Origin: Natrarchaeobius chitinivorans
GTDB taxonomy: Archaea; Halobacteriota; Halobacteria; Halobacteriales; Natrialbaceae
DNA: 33,269 bases
NCBI RefSeq assembly: GCF_003841505.1
Contig: NZ_REGA01000028.1
Span: forward strand, 1 to 33,269
Direction of reading: 5' to 3'
Below the pieces are notes generated by a model, which was given only the letters and a program-made list of their open reading frames with translations, was not told the origin of the DNA and did not search any database. This document shows, one piece after another, positions 3,907 through 22,530 of the stretch. Within the stretch, counting starts at the first letter, position 1; each line of letters opens with the position of its first letter. The position numbers and the translations under genes are program-made.

Positions 3907-4086
3907 ATGACGTCCGACGGTGACGGCGGTGGCGGCTCTGGTCGGGACGATTCTTCGGCCAGCGAAATCGACGATCGAGCGGGACCGACCTGTCCGCACT
4001 GTCGGAGACCGATGTACGAGCGCCACTGCAAGTACGTCTGTCCACAACACGGCGTAATCATCGACTGTAGCGATCCGTTTCTGTGA
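3907..4086 (+). CDS. Small zinc-finger protein (59 aa)
   Basis: After a disordered acidic Gly/Ser/Asp N-terminus (residues 1-27) comes a compact metal-binding part. It has Cys29 and Cys32 in CPHC, His40/Cys41, Cys45, His48 and Cys54, ending IIDCSDPFL. Two pairs of ligands, CxxC and CxxH or CxxxxC, can be drawn, so one zinc ion is likely. It resembles the family of haloarchaeal zinc-finger micro-proteins, most of which have no known partner. I chose the internal ATG because the frame upstream runs through repeat copy 1 and is not protein-like, and because a TATA-like box lies ~30 nt upstream. The last base of the TGA stop is the first base of repeat copy 2. Confidence 0.8.
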   Translation: MTSDGDGGGGSGRDDSSASEIDDRAGPTCPHCRRPMYERHCKYVCPQHGVIIDCSDPFL

Positions 4087-4167
4087 TACGGTTTACTGGA
4101 AGTCAGTACCGGTGCAACCGCGATCCGTCCTGCGATTGCACCGGTACACAGTTACAGCAATCCGTAT
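4086..4167 (+). repeat. 82-83-bp palindromic repeat, copy 2
   Basis: It starts ATACGGTTTACTGGAAGTCA and ends ACAGTTACAGCAATCCGTAT. The inner stem is CCGGTGCAA paired with TTGCACCGG, so both arms differ from copies 1 and 4 yet still pair. It begins inside the stop codon of the zinc-finger gene and ends 15 bases before the convergent VTT-type gene. Confidence 0.92.
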
Positions 4168-4182
4168 GGGTCGTCGATCCCG

Positions 4183-4914
4183 TTACCCGTCGGTCGATCG
4201 AGCGGACCGTCTCGTCCGGCTCCTCGAGCGAGCAACGCGGTAGGCGGGCCCTGCGAGTAACAGTGCGGCGGCGAGTACACAGGCGACCGAGAGGGCGATT
4301 CCGAGTTCTTCCAGCCCGTCCATCGTAACCGTCGCAGCCGACGCGCCGACGAAGACGGCGGCGACGGTCCACGGCAGTTCCCCCGCCGCCGTCCCGACGA
4401 CGAGGTGGCGCAGTCGGACGCCGCTGGCTGCAGCAGCACACGTCGAGACGTCCGACGGGATCGGCGCGAGCCGCGAGGCTGTTACGCCTCGAATCGGTCC
4501 TGCTGTCCGATAGTATCGCGTAATCACCTCACCGATTCCGTCCATCGATCCCCACCGCGCTGCCGCGAGCCCGCTCGAGCGATCGACCGGTTCGTCGGGG
4601 TCGGGTGCGAACCACCGGGCGGCGAAGAAGACGGGGACGACGGTTACGACGACGCCTGCAAGTGCGATCGGGACACCGAGTGTGACACCGTACCCGTACC
4701 CGGCGACGACAGCAAGTGGCGTCGTCGGCCAGGCGAAAAGCGGGCGGACGAGGTAGAGGCCGGCGACGACGGCCCCGAACAAAAACGGATCAGCGGCTAC
4801 GGATTCGAGCCTCGTGAGAGCCGTCGATGGCGAAACGAGCAACCCCGCGGCGACGATCGCACTCGCCACGAGTATTCCGGCGAGCGCACGCGTCGACACC
4901 GACGGAACCGACAT
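4183..4914 (-). CDS. VTT/TVP38 (SNARE-associated) family membrane protein
   Basis: This 243-residue integral membrane protein has about five to six hydrophobic segments. The middle matches the VTT (DedA/TVP38/TMEM64) family: a re-entrant region rich in small residues around PLFAWPTTPLAVVAGYGYG, followed by a basic/aromatic stretch, RYYRTAGPIRGVTASRLAPI, with the Arg-x-x-Pro loop typical of the family. Such proteins are thought to move lipids or solutes using the proton gradient. The substrate here is unknown. The start at 4914 (MSVPSVSTRALAG) is preferred over an upstream start because the extra residues are hydrophilic and a TATA-like ACAAAAGC lies ~30 nt before it. It is divergent from the gene at 5011. 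Confidence 0.75.
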   Translation of the reverse strand: MSVPSVSTRALAGILVASAIVAAGLLVSPSTALTRLESVAADPFLFGAVVAGLYLVRPLFAWPTTPLAVVAGYGYGVTLGVPIALAGVVVTVVPVFFAARWFAPDPDEPVDRSSGLAAARWGSMDGIGEVITRYYRTAGPIRGVTASRLAPIPSDVSTCAAAASGVRLRHLVVGTAAGELPWTVAAVFVGASAATVTMDGLEELGIALSVACVLAAALLLAGPAYRVARSRSRTRRSARSTDG

Positions 4915-5010
4915 CGATCGCAGTTTCGACTCGAACGCCGAAGCTTTTGTGACTCGAGTCGAAGCCGGACGACACAACGTTTATTCGCTCCGGGCAGCCA
5001 GCACCTACCG
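4915..5010. promoter_or_regulatory. Divergent promoter region
   Basis: This 96-bp spacer separates two leaderless-looking genes. GTTTATTC at about 4979-4986 lies 25-32 nt before the ATG at 5011. ACAAAAGC, read on the minus strand around 4942-4949, lies ~30 nt before the start at 4914. Both fit archaeal TATA-box spacing. Confidence 0.45.
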
Positions 5011-5514
5011 ATGGACAGAGAGGGAACCGACGACCGCCGCGGTGGGGATCACCTCGACGACCGCAGCGGCGAGGACCGCCCCGACGACCGCAGCGGCGGG
5101 GACCACCACCACGACCGCAGCGGCGGGGACGACCCTGGCGAGCGTAACGATGGGGACAAACTCGACGATCGCGTGGAACTCGGACTCGCGTTGCTCGAGC
5201 ACCTCGAGCACGAGTCGCTCTCGCTCGCCGACGTCGTCGACCGCATCGAGACGGTTACGTCCGATCCGGCGGTGACGCGGACGATTCTCGATCAGGCCGA
5301 GTTTCGCGGCATCATCGAACGCGAGGACGGAATCGTCCGGCCGAAGAGCCGCCAGTACGTCAGTTTCGACGAGGACGTGATCACGAAAGAGGGGGAGTTC
5401 TCGTGTCGACGCTGTGGCTCGAGCCTGTCGACCGGGTACTTCATCGATCTCGAAGCGGGTGAACTCGGCCCCTTCGGCTCCTCGTGCATCCGAAAAGTAA
5501 CCGGCCGCGAATAG
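5011..5514 (+). CDS. Haloarchaeal conserved protein with CxxC motif (DUF5830-like), repeat-extended N-terminus
   Basis: The protein has 167 residues. The conserved part (about 55-167) has a helical winged-helix-like portion (VELGLALLEHLEH...) and a C-terminal module with CRRC, a Gly-rich segment and a later Cys in GSSCIRKVTGRE, suggesting a small zinc site. It resembles a family of unknown function restricted to haloarchaea; DUF5830 is my tentative assignment from memory. The first ~45 residues are four copies of a nine-residue acidic repeat (DDRSGGDHH-type), which reads as a recent expansion in a disordered tail. A role in DNA or RNA binding is possible but not shown. Confidence 0.7.
   Translation: MDREGTDDRRGGDHLDDRSGEDRPDDRSGGDHHHDRSGGDDPGERNDGDKLDDRVELGLALLEHLEHESLSLADVVDRIETVTSDPAVTRTILDQAEFRGIIEREDGIVRPKSRQYVSFDEDVITKEGEFSCRRCGSSLSTGYFIDLEAGELGPFGSSCIRKVTGRE
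5031..5138 (+). repeat. 27-bp tandem repeat, four units, inside the CxxC-protein gene
   Basis: Units start at 5031, 5058, 5085 and 5112. Each begins CGACCGC(A/C)GCGG or a close variant and encodes nine residues: DDRRGGDHL, DDRSGEDRP, DDRSGGDHH, HDRSGGDDP. The last three share CGACCGCAGCGGCG exactly. Confidence 0.85.
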
Positions 5515-5561
5515 TGACGTAACCGGCCGCAAGAAGGGAGTCGAAATCGGAGAGCGGCCTG

Positions 5562-6677
5562 CTACCGTCCGCGCCGAAGTTCGGTGATCAACTGATCGAT
5601 CGTCTCCTGTTGTCGTTCGATGAGGTCGTTCTGGCGGTCGACCGCCGACTCGAGTCGGTCGAGACGCTCTATGAGTTCGGGATCGGGATCGCTCGCAGCA
5701 TCGGCCTGGTCCGCCGTGCGCTGGGGCGTTCCGTTAGCGCTGGATTCGTCGAAGACGTTCCCGGTTTCGATGGTTGCCGTCCGCTGTTCGGCGTTCGAAC
5801 CCGCCGCGGATTCGCCTCCGCCGTGGGCGGATTCCCCGGTGTCGGATTCTGATCGCGGATCGTCCTGTGGCCCCTGATTCGGAGTCGCTTCGATCTGGCT
5901 TCGCCCACCCCGTTCTCCCGTGGGGTCGCCCGCGTCGACGGCGTCCTGATCGTCGGGTTCTGGTGGATTTGCATCGAGCGGATCGACGCCGTCACCGAAG
6001 TCCATCGACGCGTCGGCCCGTTGGTCTGTCTCGTCGTCTTCCCCGACTTTTTCGTTGAGTTCCTCCAGGGAGCTGACGTCGTGATAGTCGAACAGGGCCC
6101 GTTTGAGACGCTCCCGAAGGTCGTTCGCTTCCTCGTTCGGGGCTTTGATCCGCTGGGGCCGCCCGTCGACGACGAGGACGATCTGCATTGCGACGCTACC
6201 GTCTTCGAACGAGAGTTCGCTCACGTCTCCGAAGTGGTACTCCTCGTAATCCTCGTCCCAGACCGCACCCCCGATGTGTTTGACGAGTCGATCGCTCGTG
6301 ATGAGTAACGTCAGTTCGCTGAATCGGTAGGTCTGGACGACCGTTTCGCCCGGTTCCGTGATGTCGTTTCCGTTCAATACGCCGGCGAGAACGGGGTGAA
6401 GTGCCGCGTCGGTTTTGCTCGAGGGGACCGTAAACTCGCGAGTTCCCTCGAGTGCATACTCGAGGGTGAATTTGGTTTTTCGTCGGCCTTCCGAGAGGGT
6501 CAGGCGGTCGGCGTCGTGGGGGTAGTCGTCGACCGATTCGTCGCTCAAGAGACCGTCGGCACGATAAACGAGTGTCCGCGTCGGAGTGATAAACAGTTGA
6601 TCCTCGCCGCCGAGAGAAACTCGTGCTGCGATCTCCTCGTCGTCGAGAGTAGACTGGACGATTCCGGGAACGCTCAT
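5562..6677 (-). CDS. Haloarchaeal conserved protein (DUF7115-like) with C-terminal coiled coil
   Basis: The protein has 371 residues. The N-terminal ~210 residues contain two similar beta-rich halves (GEDQLFITPTRTLVYRAD and RFSELTLLITSDRLVKHIG), resembling tandem PH-like or bPH folds. The middle (~215-325) is a disordered Asp/Glu/Gly/Ser linker. The end (LDRLESAVDRQNDLIERQQE...) is a heptad coiled coil, so it probably oligomerises. It is soluble and has no signal peptide. I recall this architecture as a haloarchaeal family of unknown function (DUF7115, tentative). The ATG at 6677 (MSVPGIVQ) is preferred because the residues upstream are poor in acidic residues and unlike the family start. It is divergent from tRNA-Met. 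Confidence 0.7.
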   Translation of the reverse strand: MSVPGIVQSTLDDEEIAARVSLGGEDQLFITPTRTLVYRADGLLSDESVDDYPHDADRLTLSEGRRKTKFTLEYALEGTREFTVPSSKTDAALHPVLAGVLNGNDITEPGETVVQTYRFSELTLLITSDRLVKHIGGAVWDEDYEEYHFGDVSELSFEDGSVAMQIVLVVDGRPQRIKAPNEEANDLRERLKRALFDYHDVSSLEELNEKVGEDDETDQRADASMDFGDGVDPLDANPPEPDDQDAVDAGDPTGERGGRSQIEATPNQGPQDDPRSESDTGESAHGGGESAAGSNAEQRTATIETGNVFDESSANGTPQRTADQADAASDPDPELIERLDRLESAVDRQNDLIERQQETIDQLITELRRGR

Positions 6678-6748
6678 GTCGCGGTAGTTCGCAAGGGCCT
6701 GTGATAAATCCGTGGGTCCCCGTTGCACGGCAGCGCCGAATGAGAAGC

Positions 6749-6753
6749 TTAAA
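6749..6753 (+). promoter_or_regulatory. TATA box of tRNA-Met
   Basis: TTAAA within GAAGCTTAAAG lies 28-32 nt before the first base of the tRNA, with purine-rich BRE-like bases just upstream. Confidence 0.6.
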
Positions 6754-6780
6754 GAAACGGACCGCACTACGAGAGAACGA

Positions 6781-6931
6781 GCCCGGGTGGCTTAGCTGGA
6801 CATAGCGCCGCACTCATAGGGTTCAGAGATTCGGTGCGGTTTCGCCTTGGAAGCCTCCGTGTCCCTCGAGGACTGCCGAGCCTCGAACCTGGGACATGCG
6901 GAGATCGAGGGTTCGGAGCCCTCCCCGGGCA
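6781..6931 (+). tRNA. trnM: Elongator tRNA-Met (CAU) with a 77-nt intron
   Basis: Exon 1 is 6781-6818 and exon 2 is 6896-6931. The acceptor arms are GCCCGGG (6781-6787) and CCCGGGC (6924-6930), with discriminator A6931. The anticodon stem is CCGCA (6808-6812) with TGCGG (6897-6901). The loop is CTCATA plus A, with anticodon CAT at 6815-6817. The T arm is GAGGG-TTCGGAG-CCCTC. The intron (6819-6895) lies between positions 37 and 38, the canonical archaeal place, and begins GGGTTCAGAGATTCGGTGCG. Elongator tRNA-Met introns of about this size are known in haloarchaea and are cut at a bulge-helix-bulge by the tRNA splicing endonuclease. CCA is not encoded. Confidence 0.95.
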
Positions 6932-7256
6932 CTGGCTTTCTATCCGAAGTCACGAACGCAGCGAGTGACGAGTCCGGAATCCAGTGCCCGAACGAGACGG
7001 AGAACCCGGAGGTCCTCAAGAGTGAGCAATGCGAGGCGCGAGCGTCGTGAGCGCCTCGAAAATGCGAGCGGCGAAGCCGCGAGCACAGCGAACGATCGAG
7101 GGAACGAAAGAGCTCGCTTTTCGGTGGTTCGGAGGCGGAGACCCGGTGGTCTTCAGCGAGCGAACCGAGGCAAGCAACAGCGTTTTTCCACTCGACGCAG
7201 ACATCCTAACCGCCCAACAACCGCGGAATCGACGTATTCGGTGAATATTTCGTTCG
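6932..7256. other. Non-coding spacer with hairpins
   Basis: I see no credible gene. The tRNA 3' end GGGCACTGG (6928-6936) is followed ~50 nt later by its inverse CCAGTGCCC (6982-6990), forming a long-loop hairpin. Further on, GAGGCGC and GCGCCTC (about 7030-7058) form another, and short GCGAGCGGCGAAGCCGCGAGC-type palindromes follow. These look like a terminator plus typical haloarchaeal intergenic palindromes. The promoter of the antiporter pair must lie in the last ~60 bases, but no strong TATA box stands out. Confidence 0.5.
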
Positions 7257-8996
7257 ATGGCTCTCGGTGGAATCGCCCTTGCGACGGATTTCGCGCTCCT
7301 GATCGTCGCCGCGACGGCGTTGAGCTACGTCGCCCGGCTGACGAGACAGCCGACCATCGTCGCGTACGTCCTGACGGGTGTCGTCGTCGGCCCGATCGGC
7401 CTCGGAATCGTCGGCGAGGGCGACCAGCTGATCGAAATCGTCGCCGAACTCGGCCTCGGATTTCTCCTGTTCCTCCTCGGCATCGAGATGCGTTTCGAAG
7501 ACATCCGGGAGATCGCGAAACCCGTCGGTGCGATCGCCGTCGGTCAGGCGGTGTTACAGGCCGTCACATCGACGGCCGTCGCCCTCGTGCTGGGGTTCAC
7601 GTTGTTCCAGTCGCTGGTGATTGCGCTGGCGACGACCTTCGGCGCGACGCCGATCATCGTCAAGGTACTCGGGGACAAGGACGATTTAAAGACGCTGTAC
7701 GGCAAGGTCGACGTCGGAATCCTCATCTTTCAGGACATCTACCTCGTGATGGCACTTGCTATTCTCGCGGTCGGAACCGTCGACGACGTCACAGAGATTG
7801 CCACGAGCATCGGCCGCGTGTTCTTCCTGATGGCCGTTATCGGTGTCTTCGCCTTCCTGGCCAGTAAGTACTTCCTGCCGGCGATATTGCGAGCGAGCGC
7901 CGCGAACAAGAGCACACTCTTTACCGTCGGCATCGCGTGGGCGTTTCTGTTCATCTTCGCGGCCGAAACGCTCGCTCTCTCCATCGAGATCGGTGCCTTC
8001 CTTGCGGGACTCGCGCTCGCACAACTCCCGTACAGCACGGAACTCAAAGAACGAATGCGCCCCGCGACGAACTTCTTCATTGCGGTCTTCTTCGCGAGTC
8101 TCGCCCTCCAGATGGGCGTCGAACAGTTGCTGGTCTACTGGCAAGAGGCAATCGCGGCGTCCGTCCTCCTTCTCAGTATCAACTTCTTCATCGTCTTCGG
8201 GTTGTTCTACAGCCAGCGGTTCGACATCGAAACCTCGTTTCTCGGTACGATCTCGATGCTCCAGGTCAGCGAGTTTTCGCTGGTGTTGGGCGCACTCGCC
8301 GTCGAAGAGGGATTCGTCGGGGAGGACATACTCGGCTTTCTCAGCCTCATGGCGTTGATCACGATGCCGATCTCGACGTACTACGTACTCTACAACAGGC
8401 AGATCTACCGTTACGTCCGGCCGTACCTCGAACGGTTCGAACGCGAAGACACTGTCGAAGCCCAGCCCATCGAATACGAGAATCACGCCGTGATCGTCGG
8501 CTACAGCCGCTTTACGAGCGAACTCGTGGACGTCCTCCTGAACGCCGACGCGTCCGGCCCCGGTGTCGACGATGTCGTCGTCATCGAGGATCGGGCTGAG
8601 TACGTCGAAGCACTCTCGAGGGCGGATTTCGGTTTCATCTTCGGGAACGCCCGACACGGCGACATCCGACAGGATGCGAACCTCTCGGGTGCCGAGGTTG
8701 TGGTGAGCGTCGCAAAACGCACCGACGTCTCTCTCCGATTGGTCGAAGACGCCCCGAACGCGTTGACGATCGTCACGGCCACGACCGAGGCGGAAGCGAC
8801 GCGCCTCCACGAGGCCGGTGCCGACTACGTCGTGCTCGAGCGGGGCCTCGTCGGCGAGGAACTGGCGACCCTGCTCGAATCGCTCGACGACCTCGAGGCG
8901 TTCGAACGACGACTCGACGAACTTAACGATCGGGCACGGAACGGTTCACCGCGGACGCACGAGACCGTTTCGTCCGGAGGTGAAACCGATGTATGA
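7257..8996 (+). CDS. CPA2-family cation:proton antiporter (KefB-type), first of a pair
   Basis: This 579-residue membrane protein has ~12 hydrophobic segments over residues 1-395 and a cytoplasmic TrkA-N-like region from about 405 onward. The transport part has the Kef-type sequence VAYVLTGVVVGPIGLG in helix 2, GFLLFLLGIEMRFE after helix 3, and FQDIYLV, where the QD pair is the likely cation/proton site. Such proteins exchange K+ or Na+ for H+. The nucleotide-binding loop is degenerate: VIVGYSRFTSEL replaces the usual GxGxxG, so NAD(H) control may be altered. It overlaps the next gene by 8 nt, arguing for one transcript and perhaps a joint complex. Whether it moves K+ or Na+ cannot be read from the sequence. 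Confidence 0.9.
   Translation: MALGGIALATDFALLIVAATALSYVARLTRQPTIVAYVLTGVVVGPIGLGIVGEGDQLIEIVAELGLGFLLFLLGIEMRFEDIREIAKPVGAIAVGQAVLQAVTSTAVALVLGFTLFQSLVIALATTFGATPIIVKVLGDKDDLKTLYGKVDVGILIFQDIYLVMALAILAVGTVDDVTEIATSIGRVFFLMAVIGVFAFLASKYFLPAILRASAANKSTLFTVGIAWAFLFIFAAETLALSIEIGAFLAGLALAQLPYSTELKERMRPATNFFIAVFFASLALQMGVEQLLVYWQEAIAASVLLLSINFFIVFGLFYSQRFDIETSFLGTISMLQVSEFSLVLGALAVEEGFVGEDILGFLSLMALITMPISTYYVLYNRQIYRYVRPYLERFEREDTVEAQPIEYENHAVIVGYSRFTSELVDVLLNADASGPGVDDVVVIEDRAEYVEALSRADFGFIFGNARHGDIRQDANLSGAEVVVSVAKRTDVSLRLVEDAPNALTIVTATTEAEATRLHEAGADYVVLERGLVGEELATLLESLDDLEAFERRLDELNDRARNGSPRTHETVSSGGETDV
8976..8983 (+). promoter_or_regulatory. Strong Shine-Dalgarno for the second antiporter
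   Basis: GGAGGTGA, a full match to the haloarchaeal anti-Shine-Dalgarno, ends 5 nt before the ATG at 8989. It lies within the end of the first antiporter gene and supports translation of the second gene from the same mRNA. Confidence 0.8.
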
Positions 8997-10629: not shown

Positions 10630-10743
10630 GATGTACGTTGACTGCGAGAATCGGCGTTCGCGAAACGTCGGGTTCGACCGTCGTCTCGGTGGCCAATCCG
10701 GAGAGAGTGCAGCCCCGGTGGGTGACGAACGCTAGTCCGCCTC

Positions 10744-10826
10744 ATACGGTTTGCTGCAAGTCAGTACCGGAGCGACCGCGGGATGGAACCCCGGTCGCTC
10801 CGGTAAACAGTTGCAGCAATCCGTAT
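10744..10826 (+). repeat. 82-83-bp palindromic repeat, copy 3
   Basis: It starts ATACGGTTTGCTGCAAGTCA and ends ACAGTTGCAGCAATCCGTAT. The inner stem is CCGGAGCGACCG with CGGTCGCTCCGG. The outer stem TTGCTGCAA / TTGCAGCAA carries paired A-to-G and T-to-C changes relative to copy 4. It lies between the convergent ends of the antiporter gene and the Tat-exported gene, and its last base is part of the latter's stop codon. Confidence 0.92.
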
Positions 10827-11302
10827 CAGTCACAGACGTCGTCGGGGTCACTCGTCGCTTTCCCGACGAGTGCGCCCTTGTAGTACACCTTCACCGTGGC
10901 TTTCCCCTTCGGAGCCTTGACCCAGAACGTTTCGGCGGAAGCGAGCGTGTTCTTGACCACGATCTTCCCTTTCTTGCCGGTTTCAGACACGCGATACGTG
11001 AATTTCATATCGGTGTCTTCGCCGTGGTGGAGGTAGAACTGCGCTCGATCGTTATCGGGATCCGCACACTCGAAGTTGAACGCAACCTGCACGTCAGGAT
11101 CGTAGTCCTTCTTGTATTTGCCGCGGCCTTTCTTGCCCTTCTTACCCTTCTTGCCTTTCTTGCCTTTTTTGTCCTTGTAGTGATCGTTCTTCTCTCCAGC
11201 GCTTGCGGTGGTAACACTGAAAACGGAACTCCCGATGAGTCCACCGCTCACTGCGATACCTTTGAGGGCCGTTCGTCGTGAGATGTGATCGTCGTCTGTC
11301 AT
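10826..11302 (-). CDS. Tat-exported lysine/glycine-rich protein of unknown function
   Basis: The 158-residue product begins MTDDDHISRRTALKGIAVSG, a twin-arginine signal (SRRTALK) followed by a hydrophobic core and an Ala-Ser-Ala cleavage region near residue 35. The mature protein opens with a low-complexity basic segment in which Lys-Lys-Gly is repeated about five times. A ~95-residue beta-rich domain follows (from about VQVAFNFECADPDND) with two Cys, one near each end, that could form a disulfide outside the cell. Such a basic stretch is unusual in a haloarchaeal secreted protein. I do not recognise the domain. Binding to an acidic surface such as the S-layer glycoprotein or DNA is conceivable, but this is inference. 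The start at 11302 is chosen because it puts the RR motif at the usual position. Confidence 0.8.
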   Translation of the reverse strand: MTDDDHISRRTALKGIAVSGGLIGSSVFSVTTASAGEKNDHYKDKKGKKGKKGKKGKKGRGKYKKDYDPDVQVAFNFECADPDNDRAQFYLHHGEDTDMKFTYRVSETGKKGKIVVKNTLASAETFWVKAPKGKATVKVYYKGALVGKATSDPDDVCD

Positions 11303-12551: not shown

Positions 12552-13103
12552 TCACGAGACGTTCCCGCCCTCCCGCTCGCTCCCGTGGCGGCGATGAAAC
12601 TCCCGCTCGTCGACGGCAACGTACTCGAGGATACCGGTGAAACACGCTGCGAAGCTCCCGCCGAAGACGACGAGGCCGAAAAGAGTTGGGCGGTGGACGT
12701 ACGGGATCGGTCGTTCGAGTCCGAGGACGGTATCCATCCATATCGGGATGCCCACTGTCACGACGACGACCCACAGAACGAGCCCGTAACCGATGCCGAT
12801 GAGGATGCTCGCGAGTACCGTCCAGTGAGACCCCTCGAGACCAGTTACTGAAGCGACCCGTTCGGGCCGAACGAGGGTGATGAGGACGAGAAACCCCCCG
12901 CACGCGAGAAGCGTATGAACGAAGTGAACGCCCCAGATAGCGGCTAACCCGTCCAGTCCGTACAGCGCACCGATGGACTCCATCCGACCAGTGATATGGA
13001 AGTACCCGCCGAAGATCAATCCGGCGAGTGGCACCGAAATGATCGCGCTGGCGAGAACCTGCAGTTCGTACACAGGCGGCTCCGGCGGTCTGTCGGCGGC
13101 CAT
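12552..13103 (-). CDS. Four-helix membrane protein of unknown function
   Basis: The protein has 183 residues with four hydrophobic segments at roughly residues 18-40, 52-75, 95-120 and 140-165. The second ends near a His-containing GVHFVHTLL stretch, and His also occurs just after the first (GYFHITGRM). The C-terminus is charged (EYVAVDEREFHRRHGSERE) and probably cytoplasmic. I do not recognise the family. The ATG at 13103 is preferred over an in-frame GTG at 13130 because AGATAAG (minus strand, 13131-13137) lies 28-34 nt upstream as a TATA box, implying a leaderless mRNA. Confidence 0.65.
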   Translation of the reverse strand: MAADRPPEPPVYELQVLASAIISVPLAGLIFGGYFHITGRMESIGALYGLDGLAAIWGVHFVHTLLACGGFLVLITLVRPERVASVTGLEGSHWTVLASILIGIGYGLVLWVVVVTVGIPIWMDTVLGLERPIPYVHRPTLFGLVVFGGSFAACFTGILEYVAVDEREFHRRHGSEREGGNVS

Positions 13104-13868: not shown

Positions 13869-13943
13869 TGGTCCCTTCGTGGTTACGTGTAAAGAGCCTA
13901 ATCGTTAATTGTGTAACGCTTCGAGCAGGCAGTGGTTAACTGA

Positions 13944-16900
13944 TTAACCCCCCTCGGGTGGCAGTCCCTCATCGAAAAGCGCCTCGAAGAGTTTTTTCTC
14001 GGTCGACCGGACGTGTTTGTGAAACGCGGGTGACGATATGTCGAGGGAAATCGCGATATCTTCGCCGGTGGTCCGGCGAGGCCACTCGAAGAATCCGCTG
14101 TGATAGGCGGTCTGGACGACCTCGCGTTGCCTGTCGGTGAGCCGGTCGAGGAGGGCGTTCCGACTGGACGCATCGAGCGCGACGAGGTCGTCTCTGGACT
14201 GTTCTCGGCGAGCGATCATCGACGCCCCAACGCCGCGGCGGTTCAGCGTGGAGATGACCTCGCGAACGTCGACCGCGGATGGAACGTGGATAACTGCCCA
14301 CGCCTCTCGGTTTTCACAAACGAACTCCCGTACCATCCCGCCGTGATCGGTGACGACCGAGCCGAGAAACGGAGTCGAGAGTTCGAGTTGTAACAGTGTC
14401 TCCTCCCCGTCGACCCCGAGAACGGAGGCGTCGACGACGTCCCCGATTTCGTTGACCGCCGCGGGAACCGTTTCGCCGTCGACTGCGTCCGTCACCGAGA
14501 CGAACGCGACCGTTCCGTCGTCTCGGGGTGTCATCCCCTCGAGCGAGACGCGGGCGTCCAGATAGTTCGAGAGTTCGACGAGCGCCGAATCGTCTTCGAT
14601 CGCGAGTTTGATCTCCGTCACTTCGTCGCCGATCAGGGCAGTCTTCCGCTTGACGGCATCGATCGTGTACGCGATCGTTTCGCTCAGGTCGACGAGCGTC
14701 GAACGGAACAGTTCGTCGAACGCGTCCGGATCGTCGCCGTAGAGGGACAACACACCGTACAGAAACCCATCGTAAACGAGCGGAACCGCGAACACCGACT
14801 GGTAGTTCTCGGAAAGCGCCTGTGCACGCCAGGAGCCGTCGTGAATCGAATCTGCGACGTTTTGGACGTAGGTCGATTCTCCCGTTCGTGCAGCTCGTCC
14901 CGCCGGTTCGGCCGCGGAGTCGTCGACTGTCGTCACCGTTATCGAGGAGAGGTAACCGCGGTCGCGGCCTGCCGATTCACGAACCTCGAGTCGATTTCCG
15001 CTCGGATCCGGAGTGCCGATCCAGGCCATCGAGCACGCCTCGAGATCCGCGAGGCGAGTACAGATTCCCCGCTCGATCTCCTCTCTGGAATCGGCCATCA
15101 GGAGGTGTTGTTCGATATCCTGTCGAATCCGGTTCGTTTCGTTCAGGCGCTCGAGGTGTTCGTTCTGTCGTTCTAACTCGTGTTCGCGATCGTGGAGACG
15201 CTGGGTACGCCCGATTCGATCGAAGGTGGCCTCGGCCGTCGTTGCAAACAGCTGTGCGAGGTCGACGGTGTCCTGATCGAACTGACCGACCGCAGTGGAA
15301 ACAGCCACGAGTACGCCGTGTTCCCCGAACGGAACGTACAGACCGCTTCTGACGTTCGTCGCCTCATTGTAGACCGTCTCAGACGTTCGGACGTCGTCGA
15401 AGACTGCTGGTGACCGGGAGACGAAGGTCTCCCAGGTGATACTATCGTCGTGTGGACGAAGTCGTGGGGGAACACCCGTTATCTCTTCGAGGCCAGGTGA
15501 GTGGGCTGCCGGAATCAGTTCGTTGTGTTGCTCGTCGAACCGGTACACGATGACACCCTCGAGACCCAATACGTCAAAGGCGACGTCGACGACGTACTCG
15601 CAGGCGGCCTGCTTCGATTCGACGGACAGCAGGTGGCTGGTCGCATCGTGGAGTGCCGACAGCGTCTCCTGATACTGCGTTCGATCGGTGATGTCGACGG
15701 CGATACCGATGACTCGATCGACGTCGCCGTCGGTCGAAATCGGCCGACACCACGCCTCGAGCATTCGATCGGCGACGCGTCGCTGTGCGTGTATCGTTTG
15801 TCCGTCGAGAGCGGCGCGAAAGTCAGCACGAACTGCAGGGTAGTCCTCCAGCGCCGAAAACGCGGATTCGCCGACGATATCGTCGGTATCGACGCCGAGA
15901 TGTTCGAACGCGCGCCCCTCCGCGAACGTGAACGTCCCGTCGCTATCGAGGACGAAAAGCGCAACGGGAACGTTCTCGATCAACACTTCGAGCCGTTCGG
16001 TTCGCTGATCGAGTTTCCGCTCTCGCTCGATACGGTCGGTGACGTCTCGCCAGTAGACGGAGATGCCGGACGGTGACGGATAGATCCGCGCGTCGATCCA
16101 CGCATCGTATGGTTCGAAGTACGCTTCGACGGTTTTCGGTTCCTGCGTATCCACCGCCTCGATCGCCGCAGATTCGAACGGCGACCCCTCGAGACCGGGA
16201 AAAACCGCGAGAATATCGCGGCCGAGCAGTTCGTCCCTGTCCAGATCGATATCCCCGATCGCACGGTCGTTGACGTACGTGAACTTCCACTCCGAATCGA
16301 GCGCGTAGAACGCGTCCGTCACCCTGTCGAACGATTTGTCGAGTTCCCGCACGACGTGGTGGTACGCCGTCGCGTCTCGGATCGAGGCGACGATTCCGGA
16401 GATGGACTCGTCGTCGAGGCGGTTCGTAAGCGTTGCCGCGTGGACCCACCAGCCGTCGTCGTGCTGGAATCGGTACTCGATCGTCGCCGTGGAGCCTGGA
16501 TCCCCCTCACGGAGCGACTCGAGGGTTCTCGAGACCGATGCTCTGTCCTCTGGGTGGACCATATCCACGAACCGTCGGCCAACCAGTTCCTCGGTCTCGG
16601 CCGGGCCGTTCCACTCCTCCGAAGGGACGGCCGCCGCGATCCGGAAGGAATCGTCGACGACGAGGAGCGTGTCTGAACTGTGTGCGAGCAAGCCGCGAGG
16701 AAGGGTTCGCCGGTCATCAGAACCGCGGTTCGTGTCACGTTCCTCAGGATCCCGGTTCGTGTCACGTTCTCCAGGGGTTCGATTTGTGTCACGTTCCTCG
16801 GGCGTCCGACCCGCGTCGAGTTCGATCGCCGTTCGGATTCGATGCTCGAGCAGCGAGGGGACGGTTCCCGATTCGACGGTGAGCACTTCCGTCATGCCGT

Positions 16901-17180
16901 TGTCGAGATGTCGGTCGAGCACCGGCCCGTCGAGGTCCATCGGATCGACGGCGTAAACCGCGGGCACCGCATTACCAACGGCGGACAACACGTCGCGATC
17001 GTCGGTCAGGAGACAATCCACAGCGTCGATAGACCCCGGGTCGAACTCCGAGCGGGAGGGAACCGTCCCGACGACCGACAGCGCGGTTTCCTCGAGTGTC
17101 GCCGTCGCAGCCCGTATCATCTCCGAGGAACCCACGACGAACACGCGGATTCGGTCGGACGTCTCGAGACTGCGGTTCAT
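13944..17180 (-). CDS. Bat-like PAS/GAF sensor with C-terminal HTH_10 DNA-binding domain
   Basis: This is a 1078-residue cytoplasmic one-component regulator. Order: degenerate receiver-like domain (~10-122), a nine-residue repeat linker (126-152), PAS1 (~164-278), PAS2 (~282-388), PAS3 (~394-506), GAF1 (~515-655), a short coiled coil, GAF2 (~690-842), the Bat-associated domain (~850-1000) and an HTH_10 domain (~1010-1062: LTDRQREVVQTAYHSGFFEW ... FHKHVRSTEKKL). It has no histidine-kinase core, so signals sensed by PAS/GAF should pass directly to DNA binding. Bacterio-opsin activator homologues regulate light- or oxygen-linked genes, but this target is unknown. The receiver-like region appears not to keep the usual phospho-acceptor pattern. 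The neighbours are a gamma-glutamyltransferase-family gene upstream and a HalOD1 gene downstream. Confidence 0.92.
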   Translation of the reverse strand: MNRSLETSDRIRVFVVGSSEMIRAATATLEETALSVVGTVPSRSEFDPGSIDAVDCLLTDDRDVLSAVGNAVPAVYAVDPMDLDGPVLDRHLDNGMTEVLTVESGTVPSLLEHRIRTAIELDAGRTPEERDTNRTPGERDTNRDPEERDTNRGSDDRRTLPRGLLAHSSDTLLVVDDSFRIAAAVPSEEWNGPAETEELVGRRFVDMVHPEDRASVSRTLESLREGDPGSTATIEYRFQHDDGWWVHAATLTNRLDDESISGIVASIRDATAYHHVVRELDKSFDRVTDAFYALDSEWKFTYVNDRAIGDIDLDRDELLGRDILAVFPGLEGSPFESAAIEAVDTQEPKTVEAYFEPYDAWIDARIYPSPSGISVYWRDVTDRIERERKLDQRTERLEVLIENVPVALFVLDSDGTFTFAEGRAFEHLGVDTDDIVGESAFSALEDYPAVRADFRAALDGQTIHAQRRVADRMLEAWCRPISTDGDVDRVIGIAVDITDRTQYQETLSALHDATSHLLSVESKQAACEYVVDVAFDVLGLEGVIVYRFDEQHNELIPAAHSPGLEEITGVPPRLRPHDDSITWETFVSRSPAVFDDVRTSETVYNEATNVRSGLYVPFGEHGVLVAVSTAVGQFDQDTVDLAQLFATTAEATFDRIGRTQRLHDREHELERQNEHLERLNETNRIRQDIEQHLLMADSREEIERGICTRLADLEACSMAWIGTPDPSGNRLEVRESAGRDRGYLSSITVTTVDDSAAEPAGRAARTGESTYVQNVADSIHDGSWRAQALSENYQSVFAVPLVYDGFLYGVLSLYGDDPDAFDELFRSTLVDLSETIAYTIDAVKRKTALIGDEVTEIKLAIEDDSALVELSNYLDARVSLEGMTPRDDGTVAFVSVTDAVDGETVPAAVNEIGDVVDASVLGVDGEETLLQLELSTPFLGSVVTDHGGMVREFVCENREAWAVIHVPSAVDVREVISTLNRRGVGASMIARREQSRDDLVALDASSRNALLDRLTDRQREVVQTAYHSGFFEWPRRTTGEDIAISLDISSPAFHKHVRSTEKKLFEALFDEGLPPEGG
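16725..16805 (-). repeat. 27-bp tandem repeat, three units, inside the Bat-like gene
   Basis: It encodes residues 126-152 as TPEERDTNR, TPGERDTNR and DPEERDTNR. On the plus strand each unit carries TTCGTGTCACGTTC or TTTGTGTCACGTTC. The repeat lies in the linker between the receiver-like domain and PAS1. Confidence 0.85.
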
Positions 17181-17289
17181 ACGTTCGCTGTGTTCCGGGA
17201 AAGTAAAAACCTCGCGACGGTTTCGAATCGGTGATTCGTCGTCACCCCGTAATCGGTCGATCTGGCGGCAGTCGACGTTCGAAACGGGA

Positions 17290-18957
17290 CTAGTACCCGA
17301 TCGCGACGCCGTCCTTCCGGGGTTCGGTTGCCCCCGAGAGCGTCCCGTCCCGATTTCGAACGAGTTGTGCGCCGCCGAACATCACCGGCGGCATGACCGA
17401 GACGTCGTGGCCGATCCGGGAGAGTTTCGCCGCGTTCGGTAACCGCTCTTCGACGCCGAGTGAGCCGTCTTCGCGGTAGCGCCACCGTGGCGCGTCGAGG
17501 GCGGCCTGCAGGTCCATTCCGTAGTCGACGACGTTCGAGAGGACCTGTACGTGGCCCTGGGGTTGCATGTATCCGCCCATCACGCCAAACGCCAGCCAGT
17601 CGTCCTCCTCGAGTCTCGCGACCGCCGGGACGAGGGTGTGAAACGGCCGCTTTCCGGGCTCCAGCCGGTTCGGATGCTCGGGATCGAGCGAAAACGACGC
17701 GCCCCGGTTCTGGAGGGCGATTCCGGTGTCGCCGGCAACCAGTCCGCTGCCGAATCCCGCAAACCGGGAGTTGATGTAGGAGACGACGTTCCCCTCCTCG
17801 TCTGCGACGGTCAACAGGACGGTATCTGCGTCCTCCGCGTTCGCGTTCGGAACGCCGACGTCGGGATCGAGAATCGGAAACGAACCGATCGCTCGAGCGC
17901 GCTCGCGTGCGTACTCCTTGGAAGCCAGCGGCGGCACGCTCTCGAAGTCGGGATCGGTGATGTAGTGGTGACCGTCGACGAACGCGAGTTTGGTCGCTTC
18001 GGCGAAGGCGTGTACGCGTTCGGGCGAGTCGTACTCGTGGTCGCCGGCACCGATCTCCTCGGCGATGTTGAGCGCCTCGAGGGCGATCAGCCCCTGATTG
18101 TTCGGCGGCAGTTCGTAGACGTCGACGCCGTTGTACGTGGTCGTGACGGGATCGACGAACTCGGGTTCGAACGCCGCGAGGTCGTCTTTTCTCATGAAGC
18201 CGCCGGCAGACTGGACCTCTTCGACGATTGCGTCGGCGATCTCGCCTTCGTAGACGACGTCCGCACCCTGCTCTGCGATCGTCCGCAACGATGCACCGAG
18301 TTCCGGAAGCCTCACCGTCTGTCCGGGGTCCGGACTCTCGCCGTCGAACAGGTACGCCTCCCGCGCGTTCTCGTCGGTGAACAGCTCCTCCGCGCCCGAC
18401 CAGTGGTGTGCGATCACCGGCGAGACCGGGTAGCCCTCGATCGCGTAGTGGATCGCGGGCTCGAGGACCGACTCGAGCGAGAGCCGCCCCAGTTCCTCCA
18501 CCGTCGTCTCCCACCCCCGCGCGGTCCCGGGGACGGTCACCGCGTGGGGGCCGAGAAAGGGCATTCCCAGATCGTCGGCACTCGCCTCTCCGTCGACGGC
18601 GTACCCTCGCGATTCGGGGTAGTATCGGTCGGGGTCGTCGACCGTCTCTAGCGCGTGACGAACGTTCTCGATCGTCGCATCCGCCGGTGCTGGCCCGCAC
18701 GACCGTAACGCGCCGACGTCACCATCCGCGGTCCGGTACAGGGAGAAGACGTCGCCGCCGAGGCCCGTCGACGTCGGCTCGACCACGTTGAGCGCGGCCG
18801 CAGTCGCTACGGCGGCGTCGAACGCGTTCCCGCCGTCTCGGAGGATCGACACGCCCGCCTGTGCGGCGAGCGGCTGGCTCGTCGCGACCATCCCACGGTT
18901 CGCGTACGCCGTCGAGCGCCTCGAGTCGAATCGGTCGAGGTCGATGGAGTCGTTCAT
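17290..18957 (-). CDS. ggt: Gamma-glutamyltransferase-family N-terminal nucleophile hydrolase
   Basis: The protein has 555 residues, the usual size for the family. Such enzymes cleave themselves before a Thr that becomes the N-terminal nucleophile; here Thr379 in EDADTVLLTVADEEGNVVS fits. The large-subunit part has NAFDAAVATAAALNVVEPTSTGLGGD and the later LPPNNQGLIALEALNI. The small subunit has GKRPFHTLVPAV where classical glutathione-cleaving enzymes have a Ser-Ser-Met, so it belongs nearer the YwrD/acylase-like branch. Haloarchaea use gamma-glutamylcysteine instead of glutathione, so the natural substrate is uncertain. No signal peptide is visible, suggesting a cytoplasmic location. The start at 18957 is the first ATG giving the family N-terminus. 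Confidence 0.9.
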   Translation of the reverse strand: MNDSIDLDRFDSRRSTAYANRGMVATSQPLAAQAGVSILRDGGNAFDAAVATAAALNVVEPTSTGLGGDVFSLYRTADGDVGALRSCGPAPADATIENVRHALETVDDPDRYYPESRGYAVDGEASADDLGMPFLGPHAVTVPGTARGWETTVEELGRLSLESVLEPAIHYAIEGYPVSPVIAHHWSGAEELFTDENAREAYLFDGESPDPGQTVRLPELGASLRTIAEQGADVVYEGEIADAIVEEVQSAGGFMRKDDLAAFEPEFVDPVTTTYNGVDVYELPPNNQGLIALEALNIAEEIGAGDHEYDSPERVHAFAEATKLAFVDGHHYITDPDFESVPPLASKEYARERARAIGSFPILDPDVGVPNANAEDADTVLLTVADEEGNVVSYINSRFAGFGSGLVAGDTGIALQNRGASFSLDPEHPNRLEPGKRPFHTLVPAVARLEEDDWLAFGVMGGYMQPQGHVQVLSNVVDYGMDLQAALDAPRWRYREDGSLGVEERLPNAAKLSRIGHDVSVMPPVMFGGAQLVRNRDGTLSGATEPRKDGVAIGY

Positions 18958-18994
18958 GGCTGGTCTACGCGCACGAACGACCAAAAAACGCTAG

Positions 18995-19028
18995 TAGCCG
19001 GCCGACACCGATAGCCGGCCGACACCGA
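18995..19028. repeat. 17-bp tandem duplication
   Basis: TAGCCGGCCGACACCGA occurs twice head to tail (18995-19011 and 19012-19028), and a third partial unit may start at 19029 with TAACCG. It lies in the 88-bp gap between the methyltransferase and the gamma-glutamyltransferase gene. Confidence 0.85.
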
Positions 19029-19045
19029 TAACCGCCCGTGGCGGT

Positions 19046-20116
19046 CTACCCGCCGCCCTCGGAAACAGAGAGCGGTTCGTGTTCGACCCGGTAACCGTCG
19101 GCGACGGTCTCGATCGACGCCGCCTCGCGAAACCGGATCGACCGTTCCATCTTCGTGACGACCGACGTGTCGTAGTACTCGGCTTCGTACTCGGGAACCG
19201 TTCCGCTCTCCCGGTTCTCCGCGACGAACTCCCGGTGACGGGCGAGGCGCGAGCGGCCGATCGATCGGGACGTCTCCGGAACGTCGTCGACCCGGTCGTC
19301 GAAACACTCGAGGAACGCTTCCTCGAGTTCGGAGCCGACCGAATCCCGTGCGGCACACATCGCGGCGAGCGTCGTCGTTCCGGTTCCCCAGAACGGGTCG
19401 AGAACCGTGTCGCCGTACGCCGAGTACATACAGATCAGGCGGTAGGGGATCTCGAACGGGTACGCCGCCGACCGCTCTCGAAGCCCGTCGTCCTCGCCGT
19501 CGAACTCGAGGGTCTGTAGTTCCCCCCGGACGTCCGTCCAGAGGTCGGTGAACCACCGGTTTCGCTCCTCCCAGAAGTACGCCGCCTCGTACCGCCTGTC
19601 CGCCCGCGGTTCGAACTCCCGTCGGTCGCTCCCCTTTCGGAAAACGAGGACGTACTCGTGTTCGAGCGTGACGTACGCGTTCGGCGGCAGCGTTCCGCTT
19701 CCCATGAACTTGGCGGCGCTGTTCGTCGGCTTCCGCCAGAGGACGTCGGGAAGCGGATCGAATCCGCGCGACTCGAACGCCTCGAGGATTCTTGCGTGGT
19801 TCTGGTACACTCGGAAGCTTCCGTCGATCGACCGGGTCGCGTCGCCGACGTTGATACACGCGATGCCGCCGTCGACCAGGACGCGCTCAAGTTCGTCCCA
19901 CACGCGATCGAGTTGGGCGTGCATCGCCTCGAAGGCCTCGCGGCCGTCGCCCGACTCGAGGGCCCTGCCGACGGCCGGGTCGAGAGTCGAAAAGAGGTCG
20001 TCCCACATCTCGATCATCGGATACGGCGGGGACGTGACGACGAGTTCGACGGAGTCGTCGGCGACCGAAGAGAGGTCACGCGAATCGCCGACGAAGACGC
20101 GGTGTATCGTCTCCAT
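19046..20116 (-). CDS. Orphan DNA methyltransferase (probable N4-cytosine type, beta class)
   Basis: The 356-residue enzyme has the catalytic motif TSPPYP at residues 28-33 near the N-terminus and the S-adenosylmethionine motif DPFWGTGTT at 240-248. This circular order is typical of the beta class. TSPPY favours N4-cytosine over adenine methylation. No restriction endonuclease gene is adjacent, so it stands alone. Haloarchaea widely carry an orphan m4C methylase acting on CTAG, and this gene is a good candidate for that family, but the target cannot be read directly. The ATG at 20116 is chosen because the further upstream start would be a GTG adding only three residues. Confidence 0.88.
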   Translation of the reverse strand: METIHRVFVGDSRDLSSVADDSVELVVTSPPYPMIEMWDDLFSTLDPAVGRALESGDGREAFEAMHAQLDRVWDELERVLVDGGIACINVGDATRSIDGSFRVYQNHARILEAFESRGFDPLPDVLWRKPTNSAAKFMGSGTLPPNAYVTLEHEYVLVFRKGSDRREFEPRADRRYEAAYFWEERNRWFTDLWTDVRGELQTLEFDGEDDGLRERSAAYPFEIPYRLICMYSAYGDTVLDPFWGTGTTTLAAMCAARDSVGSELEEAFLECFDDRVDDVPETSRSIGRSRLARHREFVAENRESGTVPEYEAEYYDTSVVTKMERSIRFREAASIETVADGYRVEHEPLSVSEGGG

Positions 20117-20228
20117 TGGGTACACACTGTCGGCGTCGCCCCCTTAGGTCCTTCGTAGCGCGGCCGGGAGAACGGATCGCCGGAGTCGCCCTTTTGACCC
20201 CGATATCAGAAACTCAATCGGATCGGCG

Positions 20229-20801
20229 TCACTCGTCTTCGACGTCGGATTCCTCTGTCTCGCTTTCGGACTCCATCTCCTCGCTTTCGGCTTCCTCGTC
20301 CTCTGTTTCGGCTTCTTCCGCTTCGCTTTCCTCGTCCGATCCGACGCTCGTCGCCGGTTCGAACTCCTCGATCGGTTCCCACTCGTCGTCCGTCTCCCCG
20401 GAAAGTCGCCGGCGCAGGATCGCGACCCCCGCGAGAATTCCGAGAACGGCGAGAACCTTCGGAAGGATGCTCGAGGAGTCGGCGTCGTCCGACTCGTCGT
20501 CGATTTCGATCATCCCGTCGTCGTCTTCTTCGGCGATGTCTTCGATGATTTCGGGCTCCTCGATGTCCTCGAGAGGCGTCTCCTCTAAGTCGGGGCCGTG
20601 ACGACCGGCGAGATATCCGACCGCGGCACCGAGACCGAACACCGCGCCTGCGAGTGGGATCTGGCGGCGTTTCCCGCCCCCGTCGGCTTCTTCGACCGCC
20701 TCGAGAATCGAATCACGCATCGGCGTGTCTAGACCCTTCTCGACGGCCTCTTTGACGATGAGCTCCGACAGCGTCCTGTCCTGTTGTTCCGTTTCGGGCA
20801 T
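20229..20801 (-). CDS. Two-helix membrane protein with acidic C-terminal tail
   Basis: The protein has 190 residues. The N-terminal ~50 residues are soluble and helical (LSELIVKEAVEKGLDTPMRDSIL...), followed by a membrane segment near residue 52-70 (IPLAGAVFGLGAAVGYLAG), an acidic loop, a second membrane segment near 115-130 (VLAVLGILAGVAIL) and a ~50-residue tail that is almost all Glu, Ser and Asp. This is a recognisable haloarchaeal architecture without known function. The start at 20801 is preferred because the minus-strand TATA box AATTATG lies 26-32 nt upstream (leaderless). Confidence 0.75.
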   Translation of the reverse strand: MPETEQQDRTLSELIVKEAVEKGLDTPMRDSILEAVEEADGGGKRRQIPLAGAVFGLGAAVGYLAGRHGPDLEETPLEDIEEPEIIEDIAEEDDDGMIEIDDESDDADSSSILPKVLAVLGILAGVAILRRRLSGETDDEWEPIEEFEPATSVGSDEESEAEEAETEDEEAESEEMESESETEESDVEDE

Positions 20802-21124
20802 AATTCGCCACGACCACATCACCGTACATAATTCTGTCCAACGTTTCGATGGATCGGTCCCACACGTGTCGGGTTACGTCCGTATTACTATCCGCGGCTG
20901 CCGGATTCGACAGGAGGTTCGCCACGACTGATGCCGATTCACGACAGGACTCCGATCGTACGTTTCCCGCCGATCCGGAGATAACTCGCGTCCGTGATCT
21001 CTCGAGTCATCGCTCGGACCGGTCGGAGAAATAGATCGTTAACCAGCTATATGTATACGCGTCGAGAGTATTCCCCGCGAGTAATGTCTTGCATAACGAA
21101 ACCGGTCGTCTCCGAGTAACGACT
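20802..21124. other. Divergent intergenic region
   Basis: No gene is seen. Near the left side lies the TATA box of the minus-strand gene (CATAATT at 20827-20833 on the plus strand). An A/T-rich GCTATATGTATACG at about 21046-21059 is the likely promoter element of the plus-strand membrane gene, giving a leader of about 40-50 nt. Confidence 0.5.
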
Positions 21125-21769
21125 ATGAGCGTCATCCGCCAGCCCGGTGTTCTCGGCCGGACCACCCGGAGACGCCTCGTCGGCGTGAGCGTCGCTCTCG
21201 CCGCTGCGACGGTCGAGACCCTGGCCATCGGCCTCTGGTTCGTCCTGCTCGTCGGTTCTCCCTCGACGGCGACCGCACTCGCCGGGCTCGGTATCCTCTT
21301 CTGTGGCTCGTTACTGCGAACGGCCATCTTCGGCTTCGCCGCGAACGAACTGAACCAACTCCTGCGACCGTGGCGTCTGGGTGCGGCGCTGGCGCTTACA
21401 GCCGGATGGATCGTCTGGCTATTCGTCGCCGAAGCCATCGGCGGAACTGCCGGACTCGTCGCTGGGACGGTGATCCTCGCGGGCGTTCTCACCGGACAGT
21501 TCCTCCTCGAACGGCGCGTGTTTCGGTTTCGCTCCCCCGACGGACTCGAGGTCGCACCGCTCCTGTCAGCCACGCTGTTAGCAGCGGGCGGGGCGGCGTT
21601 GCTCGCGTCGGTCTGGGTTGTCGACCTGACGGTCGTCTCTCCGCCGGTCGCCGTGGACACGACGACGTTCGTGATCCGCATCGAAACGATCCAGATCGGT
21701 GCACTCGCGTTCGGACTGTTCGCGTTCGTCGCCCACCAGCGACGGTTTCAGCGGCTTCTCAGCAGCTGA
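21125..21769 (+). CDS. Six-helix membrane protein of unknown function
   Basis: The product has 214 residues and six hydrophobic segments: about 20-42, 47-65, 80-100, 103-122, 140-160 and 185-202. A basic N-terminus (RTTRRRLVG) and a basic C-terminal tail (HQRRFQRLL) suggest both ends face the cytoplasm. No conserved catalytic residues stand out and I do not recognise the family. The ATG at 21125 is preferred to an upstream TTG. Repeat copy 4 follows 88 nt after the stop. Confidence 0.65.
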   Translation: MSVIRQPGVLGRTTRRRLVGVSVALAAATVETLAIGLWFVLLVGSPSTATALAGLGILFCGSLLRTAIFGFAANELNQLLRPWRLGAALALTAGWIVWLFVAEAIGGTAGLVAGTVILAGVLTGQFLLERRVFRFRSPDGLEVAPLLSATLLAAGGAALLASVWVVDLTVVSPPVAVDTTTFVIRIETIQIGALAFGLFAFVAHQRRFQRLLSS

Positions 21770-21857
21770 TCCGGCGTACTGTCCGTCCAGTCCACTCGCG
21801 ATCATCCGCGAATGCGCCCGTGAGTCGGTCCAGCGACCCGTATGAACCCGGCTGGTC

Positions 21858-21939
21858 ATACGGTTTACTGTAAGTCATTGCCGGCGCACCCGCGACCCAG
21901 GCGGCGGGTGCGCCGGTAAACAGTTACAGTAATCCGTAT
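21858..21939 (+). repeat. 82-83-bp palindromic repeat, copy 4
   Basis: It starts ATACGGTTTACTGTAAGTCA and ends ACAGTTACAGTAATCCGTAT. The inner stem is CCGGCGCACCCGC with GCGGGTGCGCCGG, the outer stem TTACTGTAA with TTACAGTAA. It lies between convergent genes and ends 3 nt short of the stop codon of the FMN reductase gene. Confidence 0.92.
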
Positions 21940-21942
21940 CAG

Positions 21943-22530
21943 TTACTTTCCCTCCGCACCGACGTTCTGGTCGCTCTCGAAGGAGTCGGGGTCCGGTTCG
22001 ATCGTCGCGTACTGGACCGTCCGCCGCCCCAGCGTCCGGACGCGCTCGTCGAGTTTCGAATCGACGAACTCCCCGTCTTCGAGTGCGGAGTGCGAGTCCG
22101 GAATCGCCGCCTCGTGAGGGATCACCCACGCGTTCAGCGCCCGACAGACCGACCGCATGTGCTCGAGGGCGGTCACCGGAAACGCACCGCCAGAGACGGC
22201 GAGCAGGCCGACGGTCGTCTCTTCGAACTCCTCGAACCCGCAGTAATCGAGCGCTGTTTTCAGCGGCGAGGAGTACGAGCCGTGATACATCGGCGAGCCG
22301 AGAACGATCGTATCCGCCCGCTGTAGGCGAACGGCCAGTTGTTCTGCGTCACCGGCTGTCTCGCGGTCGCGGTCCGGATCGAACGTCGGCAGCTCCCAGG
22401 TCCGGAGGTCGATCAGTTCGGTCTCCGCTCCGGCCCGGTCGGCGGCCTCGAGCACCCGCTCGAGGGCGATACGGGTGACACTGTCCTCGCCCAGACTGCC
22501 ACAGAGTGCAACGACGCGAACGTCGGTCAT
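21943..22530 (-). CDS. NADPH-dependent FMN reductase-like flavodoxin-fold protein
   Basis: The protein has 195 residues. The N-terminal ALCGSLGEDSVTRIAL is the phosphate-binding loop of the NADPH-dependent FMN reductase family. LGSPMYHGSYSSPLKTALDY is the second flavin-contacting segment, and AVSGG follows. Members reduce FMN, quinones or azo compounds using NAD(P)H; the substrate here is not evident. It is cytoplasmic with no membrane segments. The ATG at 22530 (MTDVRVVALCGS) is chosen because the P-loop should lie ~10 residues from the N-terminus. Confidence 0.88.
   Translation of the reverse strand: MTDVRVVALCGSLGEDSVTRIALERVLEAADRAGAETELIDLRTWELPTFDPDRDRETAGDAEQLAVRLQRADTIVLGSPMYHGSYSSPLKTALDYCGFEEFEETTVGLLAVSGGAFPVTALEHMRSVCRALNAWVIPHEAAIPDSHSALEDGEFVDSKLDERVRTLGRRTVQYATIEPDPDSFESDQNVGAEGK

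Follow-up and report, generated by a model that had tools for sequence, protein, structure and literature searches.

A palindromic 80-bp element of Natrialbaceae flanked by TSA duplications and enriched at TGA stop codons

We analysed a stretch of 33,269 nucleotides from the archaeon Natrarchaeobius chitinivorans (contig NZ_REGA01000028.1, positions 1 to 33,269 of the forward strand; hereafter the window), which carries four copies of a palindrome that we call the TACGG element. Each copy measures 82 nt including one base of a target duplication at either end (83 nt in copies 1 and 3); the copies and the genes next to three of them are listed in Table 1. The original prediction held that the palindrome abuts stop codons, and the positions bear this out. 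The open reading frame (ORF) of 59 aa ends in the TGA at 4084-4086, and copy 2 starts on its last base, A4086. T10826, shared with copy 3, is the first base of the TCA (10826-10828) that is the complement of the TGA stop of the minus-strand ORF. Copy 4 lies near a stop but not in it; its last base is 21939, and after 3 nt comes the TAA stop of the FMN reductase gene (read from TTA 21943-21945). As had also been stated, TGATACGG is found at one end of all four copies; it occurs five times in the window against 0.57 expected, and only the fifth occurrence (17112), in a coding region, is not an element end. Copies 2, 3 and 4 lie between convergent genes, as claimed, but copy 1 does not; it touches no stop codon or gene end, and the range given earlier (4084-21945) spans copies 2 to 4 and omits it. 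A Pfam match agrees with the FMN reductase label, whereas for the zinc-finger label the Cys motifs are visible in the sequence and a Pfam match is lacking. From these positions it had been proposed that the element serves 3'-end formation or as a barrier to converging transcription, or that its insertion is targeted to TGA.

Table 1. Copies of the TACGG element in the window and the genes whose ends they meet or approach
Feature	Position	Strand	Remarks
Copy 1 of the element	3709-3791	-	83 nt; TGA duplications 3707-3709 and 3791-3793
Copy 2 of the element	4086-4167	+	left duplication TGA 4084-4086; right duplication 4167-4169, now TGG
Copy 3 of the element	10744-10826	+	83 nt; TCA duplications 10742-10744 and 10826-10828
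Copy 4 of the element	21858-21939	+	TCA duplications 21856-21858 and 21939-21941
59-aa ORF with zinc-finger-like Cys pairs (by eye)	3907-4086	+	no Pfam match; TGA is the target of copy 2
ORF labelled Tat-exported in the original prediction, family not assigned	10826-11302	-	no Pfam match; TGA is the target of copy 3
NADPH-dependent FMN reductase	21943-22530	-	PF03358; TAA stop 3 nt from copy 4

The element was characterized in a sample of 1,233,269 bp from the same genome (G000; stretches of C1, C2, C3 and C14 plus the window), which is 27% of the 4.57-Mb total. A profile search of this sample returned 205 places at E <= 10, 98 of them with a score of at least 40. The copies grade continuously from identical to decayed, and young, near-identical copies are located at unrelated loci. 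Their length is almost constant at 82 nt. The body (80 bp, TACGG...CCGTA) is an imperfect inverted repeat over its whole length and is flanked by a 3-bp TSA duplication (TGA or TCA). Aligned flanks read T S [ATACGG ... CCGTAT] S A, where S is identical on both sides, and the S on one side predicts the other. Identical TGA or TCA triplets were found on both sides in 74 of the 98 copies of this genome and in 79 of 89 copies from other genomes, and the reconstructed target consensus is itself palindromic, CGTC-TSA-GACG. This arrangement explains both original observations: TGATACGG appears on one strand at one end of every copy because the TSA duplication flanks the TACGG...CCGTA body, and the palindromes share a base with stop codons because the stop codon is the target duplication.

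For 81 copies the flanks were joined with one TSA and compared with DNA of the same genome and of relatives. Junction-spanning matches were obtained for 14 copies. Seven of these were dropped because the match was the element end itself, and that of C1_131904 was dropped because its counterpart lacked a TSA; the remaining six are gap-free, uninterrupted counterparts with a single TSA. An 84-nt repeat family is the host of C1_421439, C1_284796 and C2_322343, and the same TSA was present in 17 of 24, 17 of 20 and 11 of 16 of the respective counterparts. Window copy 1 and C14_51205 are inserted in repeats of a ~110-nt family; for these two, the same TSA was present in 10 of 13 and 13 of 16 counterparts. 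C2_306306 has an orthologous empty site in the congener G003 (281 nt, 85% identity). Judged from these comparisons of sequence, mobility of the element by insertion can be taken as demonstrated. One could envisage instead that the copies are ancestral gene-end sequences that relatives have lost, as the broad spread of the element within one family might suggest; such a history is at odds with the gap-free single-TSA empty sites, some of them for copies within other repeats, with the same TSA at both sides, and with the young, near-identical copies at unrelated loci, and we give it practically no credence. The copy at G000:C2:306306-306387 interrupts a small ORF that is open through at the G003 site (frame judged by eye); the insertion would truncate its C-terminus. 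The dispersed repeat of about 110 nt that hosts copy 1 (window ~3671-3706 and ~3794-3880) occurs at 20 places in the 1.23-Mb sample.

At the window loci themselves, the intergenic DNA around copies 1, 2 and 4 is too diverged from that of congeners for alignment, and only the absence of a copy can be read from it. The stop position of the 59-aa ORF is shared with the relatives G001, G002, G003 and G015 (as TAA in G003). At the copy-2 locus of the congener G002, the same TGA is occupied by an older, different copy into which yet another has inserted (nesting judged by eye). We also considered that truncation of a gene had created the stop, and rejected it; an in-frame TGA that precedes the left end can only be ancestral, and the orthologous genes terminate at the same position.

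The 19-nt right end of the element, allowing at most 3 mismatches, matched 290 times in the complete 4.57 Mb of G000 and not once in a reversed control. Among 61 genomes (G000 included), 32 had a match; these were 27 of 37 genomes of the same family and 5 of 24 of other families, the latter with one match each. G015 and G016 had 261 and 146 matches, respectively. Named records with the element mostly belong to Natrialbaceae (Salinadaptatus, Natronorubrum, Natrialba, Natronolimnohabitans and Natronococcus, and further Halobiforma, Halopiger, Natrinema and Saliphagus), to which one contig of a Halorubrum metagenome-assembled genome is added; a few matches in bacterial records were read as chance. 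The element is an abundant, mobile hairpin family of Natrialbaceae.

The two arms of the element form 30 pairs, and 91.4% of the cells were paired in 70 aligned copies (68 distinct). Double changes were found in 16 of the 30 stem pairs, and double-changed cells numbered 94 against 32 in shuffles, a covariation that may partly be few events counted repeatedly, given the subfamily kinship among copies. When 61 nearest-neighbour pairs of copies were compared, the inner stem showed 20 double changes (15 of them paired) against 4.6 expected. As the inner stem changed, pairing was retained, at any rate among copies that spread; by eye, the weakest profile matches appear less well paired. Some mismatches in the outer arms are conserved, such as T7/T76, and the two element ends are thus distinguishable. 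As RNA, the hairpin is highly stable (z score -5.5 to -11). An Rfam search of window positions 3600-4300, which contain copies 1 and 2, gave no match above the gathering score and one sub-threshold chance match. A subfamily, represented at G000:C1:374169-374248 and elsewhere, has the inner stem GGTCGATCGC and the outer arm TACGGTCTGCTATGAGTC; one of its members is separated from a neighbouring copy by a single TSA.

We next compared the positions of the copies with gene ends, using 1086 genes called in the sample by our own caller. In 43 of 98 copies the target duplication was a called gene's in-frame TGA stop (binomial p ~5e-22), whereas 7.9% was expected from the share of stops among free noncoding TSA sites plus TGA stops. 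Within this sample, the comparison suggested by the original prediction does not show random placement. The 43 do not include window copy 2, whose 59-aa gene the caller missed, and the count is therefore low if anything. When sites were weighted by a target motif, the expected share rose to 10.5% with the motif taken from non-stop copies and to 16% with that from all copies; local sequence preference accounts for only part of the stop bias. Among 89 distinct copies from other genomes, 43 were at stops against 8.6% expected (Salinadaptatus 19 of 48, Natrialba swarupiae 3 of 10, others 21 of 31). With the 3-bp TSA duplication and the single-TSA empty sites, this enrichment in several genera supports the suggestion that insertion is targeted to TGA.

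Sites downstream of stops held far fewer insertions per site. Insertions and unfilled TSA sites numbered 43 and 471 at stops, 1 and 154 at 1-10 nt downstream, 10 and 374 at 11-30 nt, 7 and 486 at 31-60 nt, 12 and 526 at 61-100 nt, and 6 and 1003 beyond 100 nt. The motif-stratified Mantel-Haenszel odds ratio for stops was 5.1-6.6; it was 3.8 when sites bordering an element-like end were excluded. A distal element-like neighbour was seen in 20 of the 43 stop copies, and repeated insertion at the same stop is therefore common; when copies beside element-like sequence were excluded, 22 of 71 were still at stops against 7.3% expected. At stops the element tends to be oriented opposite to the gene (50 of 78 orientation-scored cases, p 0.017). 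The stop share by age third, from youngest to oldest, was 14/32, 15/33 and 14/33. The bias is constant with age and already present in the youngest copies, and its most likely origin is therefore the insertion step, not a slow loss of other copies.

A bias present from the start could also be produced if any suitable TSA site is hit and selection purges harmful insertions at once; a TGA stop would then be the safest site, since it is restored by the duplication. Consistent with such survival, no copy lay within a called gene (0/98), divergent regions were depleted and thinned with age (6, 3 and 2 copies by age third), and the local motif alone lifts the expected stop share to the 10.5-16% given above. 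However, the 100 nt downstream of a stop should be nearly as safe, yet they hold 30 insertions against 1540 unfilled sites, the stop share does not rise with age, and the TAGGG family described below, which makes the same duplication, has no clear bias. We regard survival as a possible, though not a probable, cause of the pattern.

A second alternative, that the hairpin is favoured as a 3'-end module for terminating or protecting the transcript or for stopping polymerases that converge, draws on the stability of the hairpin, the compensatory changes in its stem, its location at stops, and the over-representation of convergent intervals. Tandem, convergent and divergent intervals contained 57, 30 and 11 of the 98 copies, compared with 49, 17.5 and 31% of noncoding TSA sites; divergent intervals are avoided and convergent ones moderately enriched (~31% vs 17.5%). 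The convergent setting seen in the window is thus not the rule, and the tandem majority argues against a barrier role. In addition, no T-rich stretch was seen in the flank profile within 25 nt past the element, where a bacterial-type intrinsic terminator would have its T-run, and a hairpin 10-30 nt downstream should do equally well, but fewer copies per site are found there. Old copies, moreover, decay. We then asked whether copies are retained at the same gene ends in the congener G003. Of 57 genes with a copy (score >= 20) at the stop, 21 had orthologues in 0.8 Mb of G003, whose stops were 14 TGA, 4 TAA and 3 TAG; a copy was present at the corresponding stop in only one of the 21, and within 200 nt of it in another. 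The copies are not conserved at orthologous gene ends, which argues against a conserved terminator role. We therefore rejected, as the main reading, that a role as terminator or as barrier between convergent genes explains the position, and consider a 3'-end module improbable.

A second hairpin family of the same genomes, the TAGGG family (99 bp, ends TAGGGATTATCGT), served as a control with the same TSA duplication. An identical TSA flanked 19 of its 27 copies, and some matches were flanked by AST. Only 3 of 27 copies were at stops, compared with 86 of 187 for the TACGG element (Fisher p 0.0006). One member of this family was found inserted within a copy of the TACGG element (L318-L347; G000:C14:72852-72956).

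Based on these results, a non-autonomous DNA transposon of 80 bp, resembling a miniature inverted-repeat transposable element (MITE) and inserting at TSA with a stop-codon bias, is the best explanation, and we hold it to be very probably correct. The element would insert at TSA, preferably in a CGTC-TSA-GACG context, and duplicate 3 bp, as flanks and empty sites demonstrate; a DDE-type transposase may act in trans, to judge from the duplication and the geometry. At a TGA stop the duplication would leave a complete TGA on the gene side and the protein unchanged, as can be read directly from the DNA. With local sequence matched, a stop would be the target some 4 to 6 times more often than another TSA site, as the stratified comparison shows, and the targeting probably occurs at the time of insertion. 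Copies would later decay, nest in or beside each other and turn over between species, all of which is seen among the copies analysed. Several points weigh against this explanation. No autonomous element or transposase with TACGG ends was found in the loci and genomes scanned. An identical TSA pair is missing in 24 of the 98 copies of G000, mostly older ones. Short genes escape the gene caller, as did the 59-aa ORF at copy 2 and the small ORF at C2:306306, and the control hairpin family is small (27). Finally, the bias may partly be immediate selection, and insertion at other TSA sites may cost more than is apparent.

The scan for a partner yielded candidates that did not hold. Paired TSA+TACGG ends 150-6000 bp apart (1.23-Mb sample and 34 loci) proved to be pairs of independent complete copies, and ends without the inner palindrome (12 genomes) were degenerate copies or copies interrupted by another MITE. 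The transposase search covered PF01609 and PF13586 only, other families not being searched; in four genomes it gave nothing above the cut-off for PF13586, and no matching end pair was detected at loci of the two families (for PF01609, at a subset).

Elements with similar properties are known. A 3-bp target duplication of the form TNA or TWA is made by IS5-family elements (IS1031 and IS427 groups) and PIF/Harbinger; the TACGG element is alike in the duplication, but no such transposase is linked to it. ERIC and REP sequences form hundreds of intergenic hairpins per bacterial genome. Mobilisation of REP sequences by RAYT tyrosine transposases produces no target duplication; ERIC measures 127 bp and has TA as its target. 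Unlike the REP hairpin of 20-40 nt, which lacks a duplication, the TACGG element has 80 nt and a 3-bp duplication (a RAYT gene was not searched for), and unlike PATE or IS605-derived palindromes, which have neither inverted ends nor a duplication, it has both. Integrative elements targeting gene 3' ends (in tRNA genes, SCCmec at rlmH, Tn7 near glmS) keep the gene product intact; those are large and use one fixed site, whereas the TACGG element uses a 3-bp target at hundreds of genes. MITEs have been defined as short, non-coding, and equipped with terminal inverted repeats and a target duplication (PMC3119063). As described there, MITEs, including those of Haloquadratum walsbyi, share with the TACGG element these features, the many copies and the nested insertions (PMC3119063); the TACGG element differs in being one whole palindrome with a covarying stem, in its strong TGA-stop bias, and in that no matching parent was found. 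The same paper describes small mobile repeats (SMR) of Haloquadratum, of 80-110 bp, with inverted ends unrelated to known transposons and without target duplication (PMC3119063). SMR resemble the TACGG element in size, inverted ends, enigmatic mobilisation and frequent insertion in other mobile elements (PMC3119063), but the latter makes a 3-bp TSA duplication and SMR, by that account, make none. The literature searched, which did not include ISfinder and some subscription journals, contained no description of the element or of a MITE that targets stop codons.

Local sequence preference does not fully account for where the element lies. Should the bias act at the insertion step, the stop codon, a feature of gene expression, would be what this tiny transposon aims at, and the selection of targets at gene ends would become testable in culturable archaea. 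Tentatively, the transposition machinery of Natrialbaceae might recognise stop codons as such, or an associated state, and deliver the hairpin into the TGA and regenerate it, a proposal that we consider open to considerable doubt; the state sensed on an active gene might, as a speculation, be the end of the translated region or the boundary at which translated RNA gives way to untranslated RNA. If so, a stop-codon-homing MITE could colonise hundreds of gene ends and leave the proteins untouched. For annotators, the stop-adjacent hairpins here are mobile and do not count as evidence for terminators.

Two further repeats were noted. A third repeat family (84 nt, ends CTATAGTA) is found at G000:C1:454689-454774 and 57 places in the 1.23-Mb sample, and a paired-end scan for its autonomous partner gave no clear candidate; an inner motif like ACTGAACGTCATTGC is common to this family and the TACGG element, by which it is also interrupted. 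In the window, four tandem 27-nt units (CGGTTCGTGTCACGTTC...) at 16699-16823 lie inside a long minus-strand ORF (13944-17180).

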